Shown here in pieces: positions 1,327-28,734 of a DNA stretch of 32,716 nucleotides. The translations under genes were made by a program, and so were the position numbers. The notes beneath the pieces were generated by a model, which saw only the letters and a list, made by a program, of their open reading frames with translations, ran no database searches and was not told where the DNA came from. Source of the stretch: an uncultured Litorivicinus sp. (GTDB lineage Bacteria > Pseudomonadota > Gammaproteobacteria > Pseudomonadales > Litorivicinaceae); contig CACECO010000013.1 of NCBI GenBank assembly GCA_902558075.1, forward strand, positions 1 through 32,716, given 5' to 3'. Every line of letters starts with the position of its first letter. Position 1 is the stretch's first letter.

Positions 1327-3144
1327 TCAGTCAGTGTGCAACGCAGAGTACACCAATTCTGCGGTTTGTTGACTCATTCCTGCCACCTTTGCGATATCAG
1401 ACGCACTTGCTCGCGCTAATTCTCTTATACCTCCAAAATGCCTTAATAAAGATTGCCGTCTCTTTGGACCGACTCCGGGAATACCTTCAAGCGGACTCTG
1501 GGCTCGCGCCTTACCGCGTGCCTGCCTATGTTTTGTAATTGCGAAGCGGTGGGCCTCGTCACGAATATGCTGAATCAAATGTAACGCGGGAGCTGAACTC
1601 GGGAGACTTAACTCTTCGCCCGTATCCGCTCGATGGAGTAATTCAAAACCAGCCTTTCGAGAAGGACCTTTTGACACACCGAGCAGAAATACGTCGTGCA
1701 CACCCAGTTCGCTCAGAATACTTATCGCCTCAGACAGTTGCCCTTTTCCTCCATCGATAACCAAGACATCCGGTAGCGGTACTTCCCCTGACTTCACCCG
1801 ACGATATCGACGTGTCAATGCCTGACGCATTGCGGCGTAATCATCGCCTGCATTTACATCGGTAATATTGAACATCCGATAGTCACTCTTTAAGGGACCA
1901 GACGCATCGAACACAACACAACTCGCAACCGTTGCCTCGCCAGAAGTATGACTGATATCGAAACATTCAATTCGCTCGGGTGCATCGCAATTGAATCGCT
2001 CGGCAAAATCCATGAGTCGTTTCGCCTGACCATCGCGAGTTGCGAGACGCAAAGCCAGAGCCTCCTCGGCATTAGTCTTCGCCAACTCCAAGAACTGTTG
2101 GCGAACTCCGCGAACAGCGTGGGCAATCCGAACTTTCTTACCGCAAGCCTGGCTAAGTGCCTCTGACACTAGGTTTGTCTCGTTAATTTCGTGCGAACAA
2201 ATGAGCTCTGCTGGAATAGCGCGCGCTGAGGCAAGGTAATACTGAGGGATAAATGCATCTAAGATCTCCTCAGGTGTTTCTAAAAGTCCAGCATCAGGAA
2301 ATTGGCTATTGACTCCGAGAACGCGACCGCCGCGCACACTTAAAATTGCGATACAAATCCCGCCGCTTTGCTCGAATACTGCAATCACATCCAGATCAGC
2401 TGAATCACTTTCCATTACCTGCTCGGATTGAACACGACGCACGCGAGCAATTGTATTGCGATACCGTGCAGCTTTTTCGAACTCAAGTGATTGACTGGCC
2501 TCGTCCATTCGGGCTTCGAGTGACACAATTAATTCGCCACTTCGACCCTCAAGAAACAGGCGTGTATCCTCCAAGTCTTCTGCATAATCATCCGGACTCA
2601 CAAACCCGACGCAAGGCGCGCTGCATCGACCAATCTGATATTGCAAACATGGTCGACTGCGATTCTGAAAAACGCTCTCCTCACACTGTCGAATTTGAAA
2701 AGTCTTCTGTATCAAATTGAGTGTTGACTTTACAGATCCAGCGGAAGGAAACGGGCCGAAGGTTTTCCCGGTGCTTTGGCGATTACCCCGCCGGTAATAA
2801 AGCCCTGGGTACGGATGCGCTGTATTCATGTATACGTAAGGGTATGACTTATCATCCCGCAGTAAAATATTGTAGGGAGGCCTCGAATCCTTGATCAGGT
2901 TTTGCTCGAGCAGCAACGCCTCCACCTCGTTTCGCGTGACCGTAATATCGATGTGCGCGATCTTAGCCACCATCGCCATCGTCTTCGACGCAAGTCCACT
3001 ACCACGAAAATAGCTCGACACGCGTAGTTTTAAGTTCTTCGCTTTGCCGACGTACAAAATATGACCGTCAGCGTCTTTCATTTGATAGACACCAGGGCGA
3101 ACCGTAAGGCTTTTCAGAAATCGTGTTGAATCAAATTCGACCAT
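1327..3144 (-). CDS. uvrC: Excinuclease ABC subunit C
   Basis: A 605-residue nuclease subunit of UvrABC nucleotide excision repair, which makes the 3' and 5' incisions around a lesion. An N-terminal GIY-YIG domain starts at GVY (18-20) and YVG (31-33). Four cysteines (C154, C166, C174, C178) have the spacing of the UvrC iron-sulfur site. A UVR motif that binds UvrB lies around 205-240, followed by the RNase H-like C-terminal nuclease domain. Tandem helix-hairpin-helix motifs (IPGVGPKRR and the segment after it) lie from about 545 to the end. The start ATG overlaps by 14 bases the end of a decayed gacA/uvrY gene; the intact pair gacA/uvrY-uvrC is conserved in gammaproteobacteria. A GGGAG lies about 12 bases before the start. 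Confidence 0.97.
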   Translation of the reverse strand: MVEFDSTRFLKSLTVRPGVYQMKDADGHILYVGKAKNLKLRVSSYFRGSGLASKTMAMVAKIAHIDITVTRNEVEALLLEQNLIKDSRPPYNILLRDDKSYPYVYMNTAHPYPGLYYRRGNRQSTGKTFGPFPSAGSVKSTLNLIQKTFQIRQCEESVFQNRSRPCLQYQIGRCSAPCVGFVSPDDYAEDLEDTRLFLEGRSGELIVSLEARMDEASQSLEFEKAARYRNTIARVRRVQSEQVMESDSADLDVIAVFEQSGGICIAILSVRGGRVLGVNSQFPDAGLLETPEEILDAFIPQYYLASARAIPAELICSHEINETNLVSEALSQACGKKVRIAHAVRGVRQQFLELAKTNAEEALALRLATRDGQAKRLMDFAERFNCDAPERIECFDISHTSGEATVASCVVFDASGPLKSDYRMFNITDVNAGDDYAAMRQALTRRYRRVKSGEVPLPDVLVIDGGKGQLSEAISILSELGVHDVFLLGVSKGPSRKAGFELLHRADTGEELSLPSSAPALHLIQHIRDEAHRFAITKHRQARGKARAQSPLEGIPGVGPKRRQSLLRHFGGIRELARASASDIAKVAGMSQQTAELVYSALHTD

Positions 3145-3535
3145 GAGCAGATTCTACTCCCTTCAGGCCATGGTTGTAGGCCCAGTGCGTTAACTCAATA
3201 TCAGAATCCATCCCAAGTCTTTTCAGAAATTCTATATCGATAGGTATTGATCGTTTTCGCTGAAACAGCTAGCTGCTGAGCAACCTTAGGTACCCGACAA
3301 CCCTCAATGACAAATTACACGCCCTGAGTTCAAGCGGTGACAGCTTATCCAACGGGTTCGCTGATCGAAACCGACTCAAGGCCAGCGCTTGCGCAATCTT
3401 AGGAGGCATATGCACTTCCTTCCGCATCAGCTTCCTTAGTGCACCGACCATATGATCGTTCGAGCAACGGGCATCGATTAACCTAGAGACGCCGAGTGAT
3501 AGTAGCCGATAGGACTTCGGGTCAATATATGACAA
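3131..3535 (-). pseudogene. gacA: gacA/uvrY response regulator remnant (receiver domain lost, two frameshifts)
   Basis: Three frames read in succession give the second half of a GacA/UvrY response regulator. The first segment (3535 to about 3320) contains the end of the receiver domain (RLLSLGVS), the linker (HMPPKIAQALALSRF) and the start of the LuxR-type helix-turn-helix (LSPLELRA). After a one-base deletion the frame continues as FVIEGCRVPKVAQQLAVSAK and then TINTYRYRI. A one-base insertion near 3210 then leads into LGMDSDIELTHWAYNHGLKG. The final TGA (3133-3131) overlaps the uvrC start, as in intact gacA-uvrC pairs. The first two-thirds of the receiver, including the phospho-Asp, is gone; the uppP coding end sits directly on the break. 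The product cannot be a working two-component regulator. GacA/UvrY normally drives small RNAs that titrate CsrA/RsmA. Confidence 0.85.
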
Positions 3536-4319
3536 GCAGCACGAGTAATATCAGACCAAGCGCAAGGCGATAGGCAACAAACGGAAGCAACCCCACGCGC
3601 TGAATCAATGCAAGGAATAGACGAATGCAGAGATACGCAGAGGTAAAACTAACCACGATGCCAGTCGTTATCAGATCCCAGGCTATTGGATCAGATGTCG
3701 AAAGAAGATCCTTCGTCTTAAGCAGTGCGGCTCCCAAAATAATCGGTATCGAGAGCAAGAATGAAAACTTCGCCGCGACTCGACGAGATAAGCCTAACCA
3801 GAGTCCAGCGGTCAAGGTGATTCCTGAGCGCGAGGTCCCAGGAATCAATGCGAGTGCTTGCGCTAAACCGATGACTAACGCTTCTTTGAGTCGTATTCGA
3901 GCGAAGCCGCCACGACCTTTTTGATAGTGTGCCCACCACAGCAATAGTCCAAACCCGATGGTCGCCCACGCGATGACTATGTCCCTGCGAAGCTCAGTTT
4001 CGATGAGGTCCTGAGCGATCAAGCCCACGAAGACAGCGGGTAACGTCGCCAAACCAATCAACCATCCGAGCCGAGCATGCCGAGGATATCGTCGACCCAC
4101 CCCAACAACCATACCCGTTGTGACTCTCTGAATCTCTGGACGCAGACTAAGAATCACGGCTCCTAAAGAACCGAAGTGCACGGCGACGTCGAAAGCTAAT
4201 CCCTGATCCGGCCAGCCAAAGACTGCTGAGGGCAAAATTAAATGTGCAGAGCTCGAGATTGGAAGAAACTCTGTCAAGCCCTGAATGAGTGCCAGAAAAA
4301 ATGCGTACTCAATAGTCAT
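3522..4319 (-). CDS. uppP: Undecaprenyl-diphosphate phosphatase (BacA/UppP family)
   Basis: An integral membrane phosphatase of about 265 residues that converts undecaprenyl pyrophosphate to undecaprenyl phosphate, recycling the lipid carrier for peptidoglycan and other envelope polymers; it also confers bacitracin tolerance. Both signature loops are present: EFLPISSSAHL at 17-27 and PGTSRSGIT at 160-168, with many hydrophobic segments. I chose the ATG at 4319, which gives the family's usual N-terminus (MTIEYAFFLALIQGLTEFLP). A longer frame to 4361 would add 14 polar residues antiparallel to nothing in the family. The start overlaps the tsaB stop by 11 bases, implying coupled translation. Its 3' end abuts a truncated gacA, so a deletion or rearrangement probably brought uppP here. 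Confidence 0.95.
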   Translation of the reverse strand: MTIEYAFFLALIQGLTEFLPISSSAHLILPSAVFGWPDQGLAFDVAVHFGSLGAVILSLRPEIQRVTTGMVVGVGRRYPRHARLGWLIGLATLPAVFVGLIAQDLIETELRRDIVIAWATIGFGLLLWWAHYQKGRGGFARIRLKEALVIGLAQALALIPGTSRSGITLTAGLWLGLSRRVAAKFSFLLSIPIILGAALLKTKDLLSTSDPIAWDLITTGIVVSFTSAYLCIRLFLALIQRVGLLPFVAYRLALGLILLVLLVIY

Positions 4320-4950
4320 ATAATTTCGACGGCTGCTCGGAGAGCGGTTTCCATGACACAATTTGTCGCAAATACAATGGTGTTAGTTGTTGTCCTGGAA
4401 TCCACTTCGATGAATCCATGCCTGATGCCAAGCGTCTGAGCGTCTCAAGTGTCGGCGAAACAGGAGTCGGCGATACGGGAAACCGATCTATTTCTTCAGC
4501 GTGACAAATCCATGCATTTTCTCCGTTGAGCTCATTGACTGACATAAGTTCGAGGCGACTAAAAGTCCCATCTGCTTGTCGGTCGAACCCAACATAGACT
4601 TCATTCATTCGCGCATCAAGCAATGCATAATCAGCTTCATTCTCACTTGCAGCTGCCAACAGTGAGAGTTGATCGACAGGCAGCACGCGCAGTGGATGAA
4701 CCAAATCGAGGGCATGAATACAAGACACGGCTATTCGCAGACCTGTAAAACTCCCTGGGCCATTAATCACAACACATTGCGACAATTTATTCACCGACTG
4801 CCTCGATTCAATGCACAGCGATCGGATCGACTCGAGTAGCACCGCATCATGACGCCCCTTAATCGCATCATATGCGATCCAGTCGGATCCCACTTCTATT
4901 CCGACAGACAATCGATCGCGTGATGCGTCAATATATAAACAACTCATCAC
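4309..4950 (-). CDS. tsaB: tRNA N6-threonylcarbamoyladenosine biosynthesis protein TsaB
   Basis: About 212 residues. TsaB is the non-catalytic partner of TsaD in the complex (with TsaE and TsaC) that makes the universal t6A37 modification of ANN-decoding tRNAs. The ASKHA-fold signature GPGSFTGLRI lies at about residues 63-72, after the usual N-terminal strand (CLYIDAS). The catalytic residues of TsaD are absent, as expected for TsaB. Start is either GTG at 4950 (GAGG seven bases upstream) or ATG at 4947. It lies 27 bases after alr and overlaps uppP by 11 bases. In Pseudomonas tsaB also follows adk closely. Confidence 0.93.
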   Translation of the reverse strand: MMSCLYIDASRDRLSVGIEVGSDWIAYDAIKGRHDAVLLESIRSLCIESRQSVNKLSQCVVINGPGSFTGLRIAVSCIHALDLVHPLRVLPVDQLSLLAAASENEADYALLDARMNEVYVGFDRQADGTFSRLELMSVNELNGENAWICHAEEIDRFPVSPTPVSPTLETLRRLASGMDSSKWIPGQQLTPLYLRQIVSWKPLSEQPSKLYDY

Positions 4951-24229: not shown

Positions 24230-24825
24230 GGGCTCCACTCAAATTGGATGTTGGCCCCCACCAATATTCTGCCGTCACCAAATGTCGTATGGCGCCAAAA
24301 AGTCGGAACATCAAGACTGTCGACCATCTTTCTAAATCCGAAGTGCGAGATAGCATGAAGACTCTGACTTACAACAGCTTTTCGGCAAACTTTCGCAACC
24401 TCAATAGTTTGGCTTAGCATTGAAAACCCTCACAACAGCGCAGTGTAGCAATCTTGGAATTTCTAGATCTTAGGTAGTTAATGTAATCGGCAAATGGACA
24501 ATTCCTCACAGCAATAACAATCGCCATTTTTGCTATCCTACTTCAAGTTCTTAATGCTAATAAAACGACTCTCAGCGGCGCCCTTCTTTTCTCGATTCGA
24601 CCGAGGTCTCAACCATTTGCATGCTGAGGCTACACCCGCACCACATGGGATACGAATGTTCTCTTGCCAGTAGGCTTGGGCGTTTTGCTCTTCCGTGCCT
24701 CCCCATCCTTGTTTTCACTCGTTAAAGTTCAAACAGTTTGGAGAAATTACCACCAAAAGAGACAACTCAAATCAGTACATTGGTCGTATTATGTACATGA
24801 TAGTAACTGAATCGAAGGAGTGCTT
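24230..24825. other. Long intergenic region between ttcA and the hybrid kinase gene
   Basis: About 600 bases without an intact gene. On the minus strand near 24711-24640 one frame reads GTEEQNAQAYWQENIRI, very like the N-terminus of DUF4212 proteins, the small partner subunits of acetate-type solute symporters. It lacks a start codon and is followed by unrelated sequence and a TAG. A 64-codon minus-strand frame at 24226-24420 ending [13 protein letters not shown] just overlaps the ttcA start; I cannot assign it. An inverted repeat precedes the kinase gene (24775-24796). Nothing resembles 6S, SRP or tmRNA. Confidence 0.4.
24775..24796. promoter_or_regulatory. Inverted repeat upstream of hybrid kinase gene
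   Basis: GTACAT (24775-24780) and ATGTAC (24791-24796) form perfect 6-bp arms with a 10-base spacer, about 30 bases before the start codon. The right arm extends into the palindrome ATGTACAT. It may be an operator; no regulator is identifiable. Confidence 0.3.
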
Positions 24826-27800
24826 GTGCACATCAGTTGGCAACTTATCGTGCTGTCTTTGGCATATGTTGGCGTCCTCTTTATTATCGCATGGCAAGGC
24901 GATCGGAATACAGCGTCATTCGGCGGTGTAAGAGCATCGCGCTGGGTCTATCCATTATCGATCGGCGTCTATGCAACCAGTTGGACCTACTATGGAGCCG
25001 TTGGCTCCGCAGCCGCTCATGGCTGGGAATTCATGCCAATCTATGTGGGCCCAATTCTAGTCTTCATTTTTGGTTGGCCTATCATTTCGAAGTTCAATGC
25101 CGTGGTAAAAACACACCGGATCGGTTCTTTGGCTGACTTTATGTCAGCGCGTTATGGACGCTCGCATTCATTAGCCATGCTAACAACATTGGTGGCACTA
25201 CTTGGCACCATTCCCTACATCGCTCTGCAACTTAAAGCCGTTGGTCAAACATTTAACATCATGGCAGGTTCGCCAACCGGAACTGAGCCTAGCGTTTTTG
25301 ACACCGCATTTTTCGCAGCAATCTTTCTAACAATATTCGCGATTCTTTTCGGAACGCGTCTTCCAGGACAGCGTAGAGACAGTAACCGAGGAATGATGAT
25401 TGCGATTGCCTTTGAGTCAATTGTCAAACTGGTTGCTTTTGTTCTGGTGGGCTTATTTTGCACATTTCAGCTCTTTGATGGCTTTGACCATCTGTTTGTT
25501 CTAGCCCGCCAAGATCCGGCGGTGGCGACTGTATTCAGGACCAATTTTTCACAATGGGGGTTGGCAACACAACTGATCCTTGCAAGCCTTGCCATTATTT
25601 GTCTGCCGCGACAATTTCATGTGACCTTTGTTGAATCCCCCGATGAAGAGCGGTATCGAAATAACGCGCGCTGGATCTTTCCACTCTACCTGCTGGGGTT
25701 CATAATCTTTGTTGTTCCAATCGCCGCTGCCGGACTGCTGAAATTTGGTGGGCTGGCTCCCCCTGATGCCTTCGTATTACTGTTACCAATGGCTTTCAAT
25801 AATGAGCCTCTGGCCGCGCTGGCATTCCTTGGCGGACTTTCTGCGGCAACTGGAATGATTCTGGTTTCTACGCTTGCCCTAGCGATCATGGTTGCAAACG
25901 AGTTGCTCTTACCATTGCTGTTTCGTTCATCCTCCGAAGAGCTCAGAGAGCGCAGAGATCTCTCTTGGATCACTGTCATAGTCAGGCGTCTGTCGATCAT
26001 CGGCATCATGACATTAGCTTGGCTGTACTATCAGTCCGCAACCAGCGAAAGATCACTCGCATCCATCGGGCTCGTGGCTTTTGTCGCTGCCGCTCAGTTC
26101 GCACCAGCGCTCCTTGGTGGACTGTATTGGAGACTAGGTAACCAGTATGGCGCATTCGCAGGGATGCTCATTGGTCTCATGACCTGGTTATTGATGTTGG
26201 TATTACCAGAACTATCTGATGGACCGCTTGAAACACTACAACCACTGCTCATTTTACCGGTCGATCCATTAACAAACGCCGTGGTTGTTTCACTTGGGCT
26301 GAACCTGTTGACCTATGTGTTGATTTCACTGGTAACCACCTCACGACTGATTGATCGAGTGCAATCGGCGACCTTTGTCGACGTCATGTCCCCAAGTTCG
26401 AAGTCGGGCCGATACCTCAAAGAAGAACTTCGGATTGATGATCTGACTACCTTAGCCATTCGCTTTATCGGACAAGATCGCTTACAACACATTCTCGATA
26501 CTTACGTCGCTGAGCATCGCCTTCAACAACTGAACGATAGAGACCAAGCCCCACCCCAACTGATTGAAGCGATTGAATCAATTCTTACTCAAGAGATCGG
26601 CTTTACCTCGGCTCGACTCATGATTCGCTCCGCGTCACGCGGTAAACGCATTCACCTTGGAGAACTGGTATCGCTGGTCGATGAGGCGTCAACACTCGCC
26701 AAGCAAAACCAAGAACTCCTTCGAAAGGCGATTGAGCATCTTTCGCAAGGGATCAGTGTGGTTGACCCAAACCAGAAGCTGGTTGCTTGGAATAAGCGAT
26801 ATCGAGAGTTATTTGACTATCCTGATGAACTTTTGACGGTCGGTCGACCAATCGCAGATTTATTTCGCTATAACGCAAAAAAAGGACTGATCGGTGACTT
26901 CACCACCGATGAACAGATCGAGCAAGCCTTGCAAAAACGCCTTGATCACCTGAATCGTGGAAGCGCCTATCGCCGTGAGTCGATTCTTTCGAATGGAATC
27001 ACGCTCGAGATCATCGGTGAGCCGATGCCAAATGGTGGATATGTTGCCAGTTACTCAGACATCTCTTCGTATAAAGAAACAGAATCTGCACTGCGCGAAT
27101 CCGAACAAGCTATTCGCGTATACACAGATAACGTTCCCGCCATGATTGCCTATGTCGACAGTGATTATCGAATTCAGTTTATTAACAAAGCATTCGAGCG
27201 CACAATGCGGGTGTGGCGCGAGCAAGTCATCGGTAAACCCAATAAAGAGATGTTCACCGACGCCGAATATCAAACGCGCCTTCCCTATCTCAAACGTGCA
27301 TTCAAGGGCCGGCGACAACGTTTTGAAGTGGCAATCGACCGCGCTGGAGAGCATCGTGAATTCGAAGCACTCTACGTTCCTCATAGAAATGATAGTGGTG
27401 ATGTCCAAGGTATCTTCGTCCTCTACCAAGATGTGACCGATCGAAATGAAGCAAAACGCGGGCTCGAGACAGCCAATGAGACTCTGGAAGCACGTGTCGA
27501 TGAGCGAACCGAAGCGTTGCAAGCAGCAAATGAGGCGTTAGAAGCGGAAAATATCCGTCGAGCTGAAACGGAAAAAGCCCTAACTGAGGCGATGCGAGCC
27601 ACCGAAGAGGCCAATCGATCAAAAACCCGTTTTTTGGCGGCCGCATCACATGACTTACTACAACCGCTCAATGCCGCGAGGCTCTTTACGACATCGCTAG
27701 CGGAACGCGCCAAGACCAACGAAATCCGGGAACTGACTGGCCACCTCGAAGGCGCTTTAAGTTCTGCAGAAAATTTGATTTCCACACTTCTCGAAATCTC

Positions 27801-28734
27801 AAAACTGGATGCTGGCGCGCTTCGTGCCGAACCGAAACCATTTGTACTGACTGAGCTTTTCGATCAATTATCACAGGAATTTCAATTGATCGCCGATCAA
27901 CGCCACATTGCATTCAAGGCAAAATCACGCTACGCGGTGGTTCATACAGACCCCAGACTCTTGCGGCGAGTCCTACAAAATTTCTTATCGAATGCACTTC
28001 GTTATACAGAGCCGCATGGCCGCGTTCTTTTTGCCATGCGGATCTTTGGGGCATCCGTTCGCGTAGAAATATGGGATACGGGAATTGGCATGCACCCGGA
28101 TGATTTACCATCAATCTTCGACGAGTTTAAACGGCTCTCTGAAGGCATACAGACCGAGAAAAAAGGCCTCGGCCTTGGCTTATCGATTTCTCAACGAATT
28201 TGCGATCTCCTCGGGCTAACCTTGAAAGTACACTCAACGCCTAGCGTTGGATCATGTTTCTCTGTGACATTGCCGTGTTCAGAGTTACGGCCCGATTCAC
28301 TCAACCCACGACAAGTGTTTCGCAGTCAAATGCTGTCTCAGCCACTTACCGGTCGAACTGTCCTCGTGATCGATAACGAAAAAGCGATTTTAGTCGGCAT
28401 GCAGAGTTTACTTGGTGGATGGGGTGCAAACGTAATGACAGGAATGACTCTTGATGAAGCTAAGGAGGCGGTCAAAGTAAATAACAATATTCAAGCGGCG
28501 CTTATTGACTATCATCTGGATAACGATGTACTTGGTGTCGACGTAATCGCTGTGTTGAGGGCACTTCGAGGGAACATCAAATGTGCACTGATTACCGCTG
28601 ATCGCAGCGAGGAAATGAAGAGGCAGGCTACTGAAGTTGGCGCGTCCATTTTGAACAAACCATTGAAACCGGCCGCGCTCAGATCATGGCTTACTCAGAA
28701 GCTTCGGGGGAAGCCGCTTCCACCATCGGCTTGA
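24826..28734 (+). CDS. Solute-symporter/PAS hybrid sensor histidine kinase, CrbS/MxtR-like
   Basis: About 1302 residues. Residues 1 to about 490 are a sodium:solute symporter (SLC5) membrane domain with a dozen or so hydrophobic segments. Two PAS domains follow (about 635-745, 760-880), then a coiled coil (about 875-930), HisKA with phospho-His942 (AASHDLLQPLNAARLF), HATPase (NFLSNALRY, WDTGIGM, KGLGLGLS) and a C-terminal receiver with phospho-Asp1228 (ALIDYHLDN). This architecture is that of CrbS (Vibrio) and MxtR (Pseudomonas), which with CrbR/ErdR control acetate use through acs. No partner regulator or acs is in the window, so the link is by family only. GTG 24826 is set by AAGGAG five bases upstream. 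Its last 44 bases overlap grxD on the other strand. Confidence 0.88.
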   Translation: MHISWQLIVLSLAYVGVLFIIAWQGDRNTASFGGVRASRWVYPLSIGVYATSWTYYGAVGSAAAHGWEFMPIYVGPILVFIFGWPIISKFNAVVKTHRIGSLADFMSARYGRSHSLAMLTTLVALLGTIPYIALQLKAVGQTFNIMAGSPTGTEPSVFDTAFFAAIFLTIFAILFGTRLPGQRRDSNRGMMIAIAFESIVKLVAFVLVGLFCTFQLFDGFDHLFVLARQDPAVATVFRTNFSQWGLATQLILASLAIICLPRQFHVTFVESPDEERYRNNARWIFPLYLLGFIIFVVPIAAAGLLKFGGLAPPDAFVLLLPMAFNNEPLAALAFLGGLSAATGMILVSTLALAIMVANELLLPLLFRSSSEELRERRDLSWITVIVRRLSIIGIMTLAWLYYQSATSERSLASIGLVAFVAAAQFAPALLGGLYWRLGNQYGAFAGMLIGLMTWLLMLVLPELSDGPLETLQPLLILPVDPLTNAVVVSLGLNLLTYVLISLVTTSRLIDRVQSATFVDVMSPSSKSGRYLKEELRIDDLTTLAIRFIGQDRLQHILDTYVAEHRLQQLNDRDQAPPQLIEAIESILTQEIGFTSARLMIRSASRGKRIHLGELVSLVDEASTLAKQNQELLRKAIEHLSQGISVVDPNQKLVAWNKRYRELFDYPDELLTVGRPIADLFRYNAKKGLIGDFTTDEQIEQALQKRLDHLNRGSAYRRESILSNGITLEIIGEPMPNGGYVASYSDISSYKETESALRESEQAIRVYTDNVPAMIAYVDSDYRIQFINKAFERTMRVWREQVIGKPNKEMFTDAEYQTRLPYLKRAFKGRRQRFEVAIDRAGEHREFEALYVPHRNDSGDVQGIFVLYQDVTDRNEAKRGLETANETLEARVDERTEALQAANEALEAENIRRAETEKALTEAMRATEEANRSKTRFLAAASHDLLQPLNAARLFTTSLAERAKTNEIRELTGHLEGALSSAENLISTLLEISKLDAGALRAEPKPFVLTELFDQLSQEFQLIADQRHIAFKAKSRYAVVHTDPRLLRRVLQNFLSNALRYTEPHGRVLFAMRIFGASVRVEIWDTGIGMHPDDLPSIFDEFKRLSEGIQTEKKGLGLGLSISQRICDLLGLTLKVHSTPSVGSCFSVTLPCSELRPDSLNPRQVFRSQMLSQPLTGRTVLVIDNEKAILVGMQSLLGGWGANVMTGMTLDEAKEAVKVNNNIQAALIDYHLDNDVLGVDVIAVLRALRGNIKCALITADRSEEMKRQATEVGASILNKPLKPAALRSWLTQKLRGKPLPPSA

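Follow-up and report, generated by a model that had tools for sequence, protein, structure and literature searches.

In the Litoricola/OM252 clade, marine Gammaproteobacteria with small genomes, the gene for the response regulator GacA (UvrY) has decayed repeatedly, and the stretch between uppP and uvrC described here holds one of several such wrecks, a gacA pseudogene. It lies in the window, by which we mean the whole stretch of 32,716 nucleotides that was analysed, contig C13 of an uncultured Litorivicinus genome (assembly of 1.506 Mb, 72.4% complete). With a probability of roughly 0.82, we read the feature as the outcome of a course of events in which the BarA/GacS kinase was lost, GacA persisted as a kinase-independent pseudo-receiver, and the gene was then lost several times. 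Dead copies carry disabling lesions and decay neutrally, a tree of the genus calls for at least three losses, the surviving proteins have a pseudo-receiver, csrA is kept, and no near-full-length BarA/GacS was seen. The feature is ordinary as a pseudogene and unusual in its setting.

Results

A broken gacA lies between uppP and uvrC

On the minus strand of the window, 377 nt separate the stop codon of uppP (3522-3524) from the start codon of uvrC at 3144 (Table 1). The list of open reading frames gives uppP as 3522-4361, counted from an upstream TTG. Alignment of the loci showed that the same slot carries a full gacA in relatives. In translation, the receiver tail, the linker and the first helices of the helix-turn-helix (HTH) are read in frame A (LLSLGVSRLIDARCS...LSPLELRACN), the recognition helix in frame B (VAQQLAVSAKTINTYRYRIS), and the C-terminal tail once more in frame A (DSDIELTHWAYNHGLKGVES). 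A search with the intact GacA of LSUCC0096 as the query recovered the remnant at E=1.8e-36 with 50% identity and two internal stops. Aligned with HIMB30, the window lacks 334 nt across the joint and, further on, shows two frameshifts of one base each.

The translation, the search and the alignment confirm the original prediction that 3131-3535 holds a remnant of gacA/uvrY, and the shortening and the frameshifts bear out its view that a deletion in this slot left a dead gene. It had also described the remnant as lying in three frames; there are indeed three pieces, but they fall in two frames. The deletion edge, said to lie exactly where uppP coding ends, is in fact in the spacer past the stop codon. 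The prediction had named an intact gacA elsewhere in the genome as evidence against it; we found no second copy at E<=0.001 with the LSUCC0096 protein as the query in this 72.4% complete assembly.

Table 1. Coordinates of the gacA slot, its neighbours and related genes (window positions unless a contig is named).
Feature	Position	Strand	Basis or remark
uvrC, intact, 605 aa	1327..3144	-	
gacA/uvrY remnant: receiver tail, linker, broken HTH; three pieces, two frames	about 3131..3504	-	translations, alignment, search
Final 45 nt of the slot, adjoining uvrC, with AAGGGAG at 3157-3163 in the end of gacA	3145..3189	-	alignment of four long-decayed relatives
Single-base frameshift no. 2, past the recognition helix	3217..3221 (approximate)	-	alignment against HIMB30
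Single-base frameshift no. 1, within the HTH	3310..3314 (approximate)	-	alignment against HIMB30
TACTATC at the deletion joint	3498..3504	-	in G004, flanks the missing stretch on either side
uppP 3' spacer ahead of the gacA remnant	3498..3521	-	alignment with relatives
uppP, intact	3522..4319	-	ATG at 4319, stop 3522-3524; relatives by tblastn
Hybrid kinase, 1304 aa: sodium-symporter-like N-terminal part, PAS, HisKA, HATPase, receiver; NahK/ErcS-like C-terminal half	24820-28731	+	
csrA paralogues, two, diverged; one nearer the Pfam model	G000 C3:28886-29041 and C3:133507-133653		

A short repeat marks the deletion joint

In G004, a relative with the longer arrangement, TACTATC occurs after uppP and again inside gacA, at both ends of the stretch that is missing from the window. 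The alignment shows one or two mismatches to this motif in one or both copies in G021, G019 and G009. Slippage or recombination between the two short TACTATC repeats probably removed the 334 nt in the window's lineage. The other recognisable dead copies (G004, G019 and G021) do not have this deletion. Three sister genomes thus carry a dead gacA without it, so the 334-nt deletion was not required for the death of the gene.

Dead copies decay neutrally

We refer to the genomes by labels, of which G000 is the window's genome, G009 is HIMB30, G001 is LSUCC0096, G019 is AG-915-K04 and G021 is AG-900-B21. HIMB30 and LSUCC0096 are given as OM252 isolates in PMC8269220. Lesions of gacA differ from copy to copy: four stops and a 2-nt insertion in G021, insertions of 1 and 3 nt and one stop in G019, and a 76-nt deletion and three stops in G004. 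Several of the dead copies stem from incomplete genomes.

We counted lineage-specific changes by codon position. In the dead copies, 21 of 27 changes in the window, 13 of 22 in G021, 35 of 47 in G004 and 25 of 43 in G019 fell at codon positions 1 and 2, and all four are indistinguishable from the neutral two thirds (p 0.26-0.5). Living copies had 4 of 15 (G009), 6 of 19 (G001) and 2 of 14 (G014) at these positions, and G016, whose status is uncertain, had 21 of 79; all of these are below neutral (p 0.0023 or less). The decay in the dead copies is neutral, and gacA there is a pseudogene, with disabling lesions and no codon constraint.

The branch common to G000, G021 and G004, taken against G009 and G019, has 5 of 15 changes at positions 1 and 2, suggesting that gacA was constrained for at least much of that branch. 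G000 and G021 have eight changes in common, five of them at positions 1 and 2. When G021 was compared with only G009 and G019, 39 of 84 changes fell at positions 1 and 2, which is below neutral (p=0.00017) and counts against the reading of neutral decay; we attribute this value to older, constrained changes on the shared branch.

No identical lesion is common to the four dead copies near HIMB30 (G000, G004, G019 and G021). Codon 13 is a stop in both G004 (TGA) and G021 (TAA); the window has lost this part of the gene. These two stops may be one old lesion that was changed later, and G000, G021 and G004 possibly died once for that reason. A separate death of G019 is likelier than separate deaths among the other three.

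gacA was lost at least three times in the genus

The gene is dead or missing in nine of the 22 genus genomes and intact, as far as the contig reaches, in ten (G001, G002 in part, G003, G006, G007, G009, G010, G011, G014 and G020). Four of the 22 (G000, G004, G019 and G021) have a recognisable dead copy. Another four (G005, G008, G012 and G018) have about 340 nt in the slot, with alignment to gacA above chance confined to the final 27-40 nt, and G015 has about 72 nt there. We counted G016 as uncertain because its partly covered gacA has a 1-nt insertion but is otherwise constrained, and left G013 and G017 unplaced because uvrC was not found in them. Among the ten genomes with an intact gene, the order uppP-gacA-uvrC stands on a single stretch in eight, G002 and G014 being cut by contig ends.

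We placed these states on a tree of UppP and UvrC with 21 rows, 20 genus genomes and G022, to which UppP contributed 254 residues, beginning one position ahead of its start and leaving off the final 12. At minimum, three changes of the dead label are needed on this tree (shuffled mean 7.0): one near HIMB30, one in the clade of G005, G008, G012 and G018, and one in G015, whose place in the tree is unsettled. An in-frame stop, either an error or a real lesion, splits one frame within uppP of G018 (L076 3454-3456).

Flagellin is present in seven of the nine gacA-dead genomes (absent from G008 and G019) and in five of the ten gacA-intact ones, and is absent from G016, so that we rejected the idea that loss of gacA tracks loss of flagellin. 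PMC8269220 reports flagellar genes in 18 genomes of the OM252 clade and describes the clade as less streamlined than SAR11. Besides shorter flagellin frames, very long frames with a flagellin N-terminal domain occur, of 1671 aa in the window's genome and up to 1705 aa in the genus (L255, L262).

The end of gacA may survive as a uvrC leader

The end of gacA overlaps the start of uvrC. In the four long-decayed relatives (G005, G008, G012 and G018), 36 of 45 columns are identical in the last 45 nt before uvrC, compared with 138 of 298 over the remaining slot (Fisher p=2e-5, with a tail length of 45 nt that was picked by eye after viewing the sequences). Their tails carry GAAGGGAGTAGAAT or GAAGGGGTTAGAAT. 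Judging from this conservation, the last 30-45 nt of gacA have probably been kept because they serve as a uvrC leader. In the decayed slots L076-L079, conservation looks higher at and around a short inverted repeat (AGCCAATTAATTTGGCT-like) than elsewhere.

Surviving GacA proteins have a degenerate receiver

In all ten genus GacAs examined (nine full-length and the partial G002), both metal-binding acids, the Ser/Thr and the Lys needed for phosphorylation are replaced, with the phospho-acceptor Asp kept. In the sister genus, the GacA of G022 keeps all five residues and, judged by eye from sequence alone, the proteins of G023 and G024 resemble it in this. The Pfam Response_reg model was unlisted in five of six genus proteins scanned and reached 18.2 bits in the sixth (cut-off 30.2), HMMER's filters dropping most weak matches; with the same model, two outgroup proteins scored 71.8 and 97.1 bits. 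GerE, the LuxR-type HTH, scored 54.6-61 bits in all six genus proteins; this HTH is the one that is broken in the window. On average, pairs of the nine full-length genus GacAs share 48% identity over the receiver part, compared with 79% over the HTH part.

The LSUCC0096 protein was modelled with AlphaFold2 from an input of seven sequences, one of them partial; the model had a mean pLDDT of 88.4 and showed the receiver and HTH layout with the receiver fold kept. The best NCBIfam match is NF007018 (UvrY/SirA/GacA), at 104-115 bits in four genus proteins, below the cut-off of 280. The sister-genus protein, in which the pocket is complete, also reached only 129 bits, so the low score does not come from pocket loss alone; a canonical relative from the order reached 320 bits. 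From its residues and the predicted structure, the genus GacA is a pseudo-receiver response regulator, with a predicted receiver fold but without key residues for phosphotransfer. In titles and abstract openings, neither a GacA with a pseudo-receiver nor the loss of gacA from the Litoricola/OM252 clade came up, and a term search of the OM252 paper (PMC8269220) returned no GacA, CsrA or two-component.

No near-full-length BarA/GacS was seen in the family

We searched for the cognate kinase with NF008318 (BarA/GacS), taking as near-full-length those listed matches that begin by position 10 and finish at 890 or later. Such matches were present in 20 of 32 genomes of the order outside the family (608-882 bits, 1.6e-182 or better), whereas none was seen in 25 family genomes at a threshold of 1e-60 with at most 12 candidates scored per genome. 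Any match at 1e-60 was found in 11 of the 25, the best having 415 bits (1.3e-124) over positions 269-783. In nine genomes, the matches were among those listed and all were partial, covering about 269-791 of 920; G002 (2.3e-80) and G012 (1.6e-64) make up the others. Where looked at, the partial matches are a soluble GAF hybrid kinase. In LSUCC0096, Pfam scans of five of the eight places with HisKA proteins gave none that was BarA-like; for two of the remaining three, the scans covered counterparts from G021 and the window. From this absence, in genomes of uneven completeness, the BarA/GacS phosphorelay was apparently lost at or before the origin of the family.

Two candidates for a substitute kinase were rejected. 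The soluble GAF hybrid kinase, together with a free Hpt that is present in part of the genus, has no BarA-type N-terminal sensor, and no Hpt was found in G000. The 1304-aa hybrid kinase in the window, with its SSF part, has a NahK/ErcS-like protein as its best NCBIfam match, with BarA far behind. HisKA frames of similar length occur in many genus genomes. Hpt matches were found in six of the 22 genus genomes, all in short, free-standing frames of 109-116 aa. In G021 and G009, a small receiver, a free-standing 109-aa Hpt and a GAF-HisKA-HATPase-REC-REC hybrid kinase form a three-gene cluster (L153, L062, L157, L061), and the Hpt and the GAF hybrid kinase are also close together in G019, G008, G018 and G003.

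csrA is kept

csrA (PF02599) scored above the cut-off in 21 of the 22 genus genomes, at two places in 16, three in 2 and one in 3, and at none in G006. The window's genome keeps csrA, as the original prediction presupposed, and both of its copies are open. Most genus genomes have two csrA places, whether gacA is alive or dead.

The models of the Rsm/Csr RNAs, RF00166 (RsmZ) and RF00018 (CsrB), gave nothing above cut-off in the genus, and they reach the cut-off in just 1 and 0, respectively, of 57 genomes; one CsrB match below threshold (17.9 bits) was found in G013. We also searched for the GacA box, with the consensus TGTAAG-N6-CTTACA. Allowing one mismatch, the pattern occurred at 31 places in the 22 genomes and its reversed control at 43. 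The two exact places (G000 and G004) stand at a gene junction, dapB/carA by our reading of the frames, and not ahead of a small RNA. In G000 and G001, ten frames chosen from around flagellar genes and csrA included no FliW.

Discussion

We propose that the BarA/GacS kinase would have been lost first, that the genus GacA would then have worked without phosphorylation while retaining its DNA-binding output, and that a weakly needed gacA would then have disappeared from several lineages. In the window's lineage, the TACTATC repeats would have been the site of slippage or recombination that took out the 334 nt. A further version of this idea, to which we give somewhat less than an even chance, is that GacA of OM252 dropped phosphorylation, is now kinase-independent and is vanishing in parallel, and that two csrA genes are kept in these bacteria with neither BarA-UvrY nor, as far as the local frames show, FliW. 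If this version is true, the genus would offer a graded set of natural cases, running from intact Gac control to its complete loss, in which CsrA persists.

The 334-nt deletion might instead be an artefact of amplification or assembly at the 7-nt repeat, in a gene that is otherwise lightly damaged. Amplification can produce deletions at short repeats; a short direct repeat does sit at the joint, the other recognisable remnants are without this deletion, and two close sisters, AG-915-K04 and AG-900-B21, are perhaps single-cell genomes going by their names, whose style is one used for such genomes. The record title of AG-915-K04 says MAG, and the main text of a single-cell paper (PMC6122165) contains neither name. 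We think an artefact unlikely, because the remnant has two frameshifts and a neutral pattern (21 of 27) outside the deletion and is flanked by an intact uppP and an intact uvrC. It is highly improbable that the remnant yields a functional HTH-only or shortened regulator: an 88-aa frame is open at 3269-3535, but it stops ahead of the recognition helix, which is in the other frame, and the codon positions are under no constraint.

The original prediction went further and held that the deletion freed CsrA/RsmA from its usual control. Such a recent and abrupt release from control by BarA, GacA and the Rsm RNAs would fit a dead GacA beside open csrA genes, but we consider it quite unlikely, and our results do not support it. 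The receivers are degenerate in all ten genus GacAs examined, no near-full-length BarA/GacS was seen in the 25 family genomes, and relatives with an intact gacA have no Rsm/Csr RNA above cut-off, though the models are weak. With four of five residues gone in intact GacAs and this kinase unseen in the family, the signal input was probably lost long before the deletion.

In Gammaproteobacteria, BarA/GacA is regarded as the usual switch acting upstream of CsrA. In Litoricola/OM252, csrA is retained, mostly as two copies, alongside a pocketless GacA or no GacA and with no BarA seen. The isolates HIMB30 and LSUCC0096 retain an intact pseudo-receiver gene, so that the role of GacA without a kinase, and the control of CsrA after its loss, could be tested in culture. 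According to a 2020 review, most or perhaps all Gammaproteobacteria seem to express sRNAs that antagonise CsrA (PMC7652899). The genomes in a figure of a 2015 survey were picked for holding at least one of the compared systems, and the survey, as far as that figure goes, cannot show that genomes with neither system are absent.

The genus system resembles BarA-UvrY/GacS-GacA with CsrA/RsmA in that gacA stands in the same slot before uvrC, csrA is present, the HTH is close to that of the canonical relative from the order, and NF007018 is the best NCBIfam match. It differs in lacking the phosphorylation pocket, in scoring far below the cut-off of that model, in having no near-full-length BarA, and in being dead in the window. 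Among the matches listed, the nearest solved folds and sequences to the modelled LSUCC0096 GacA are the NarL-family regulators VraR/LiaR, EvgA, DesR and RcsB, at 14-26% identity in the 50 matches listed; most of these regulators are phosphorylated. There is also a likeness to the pseudo-receiver, or atypical, response regulators reviewed in PMC12632262, in that the genus GacA has a predicted receiver fold, its key residues are gone and no cognate kinase was seen. By term counts, the main text of that paper has neither GacA nor UvrY. In the genus, it is the gene in the gacA slot that has become a pseudo-receiver, with repeated loss to follow.
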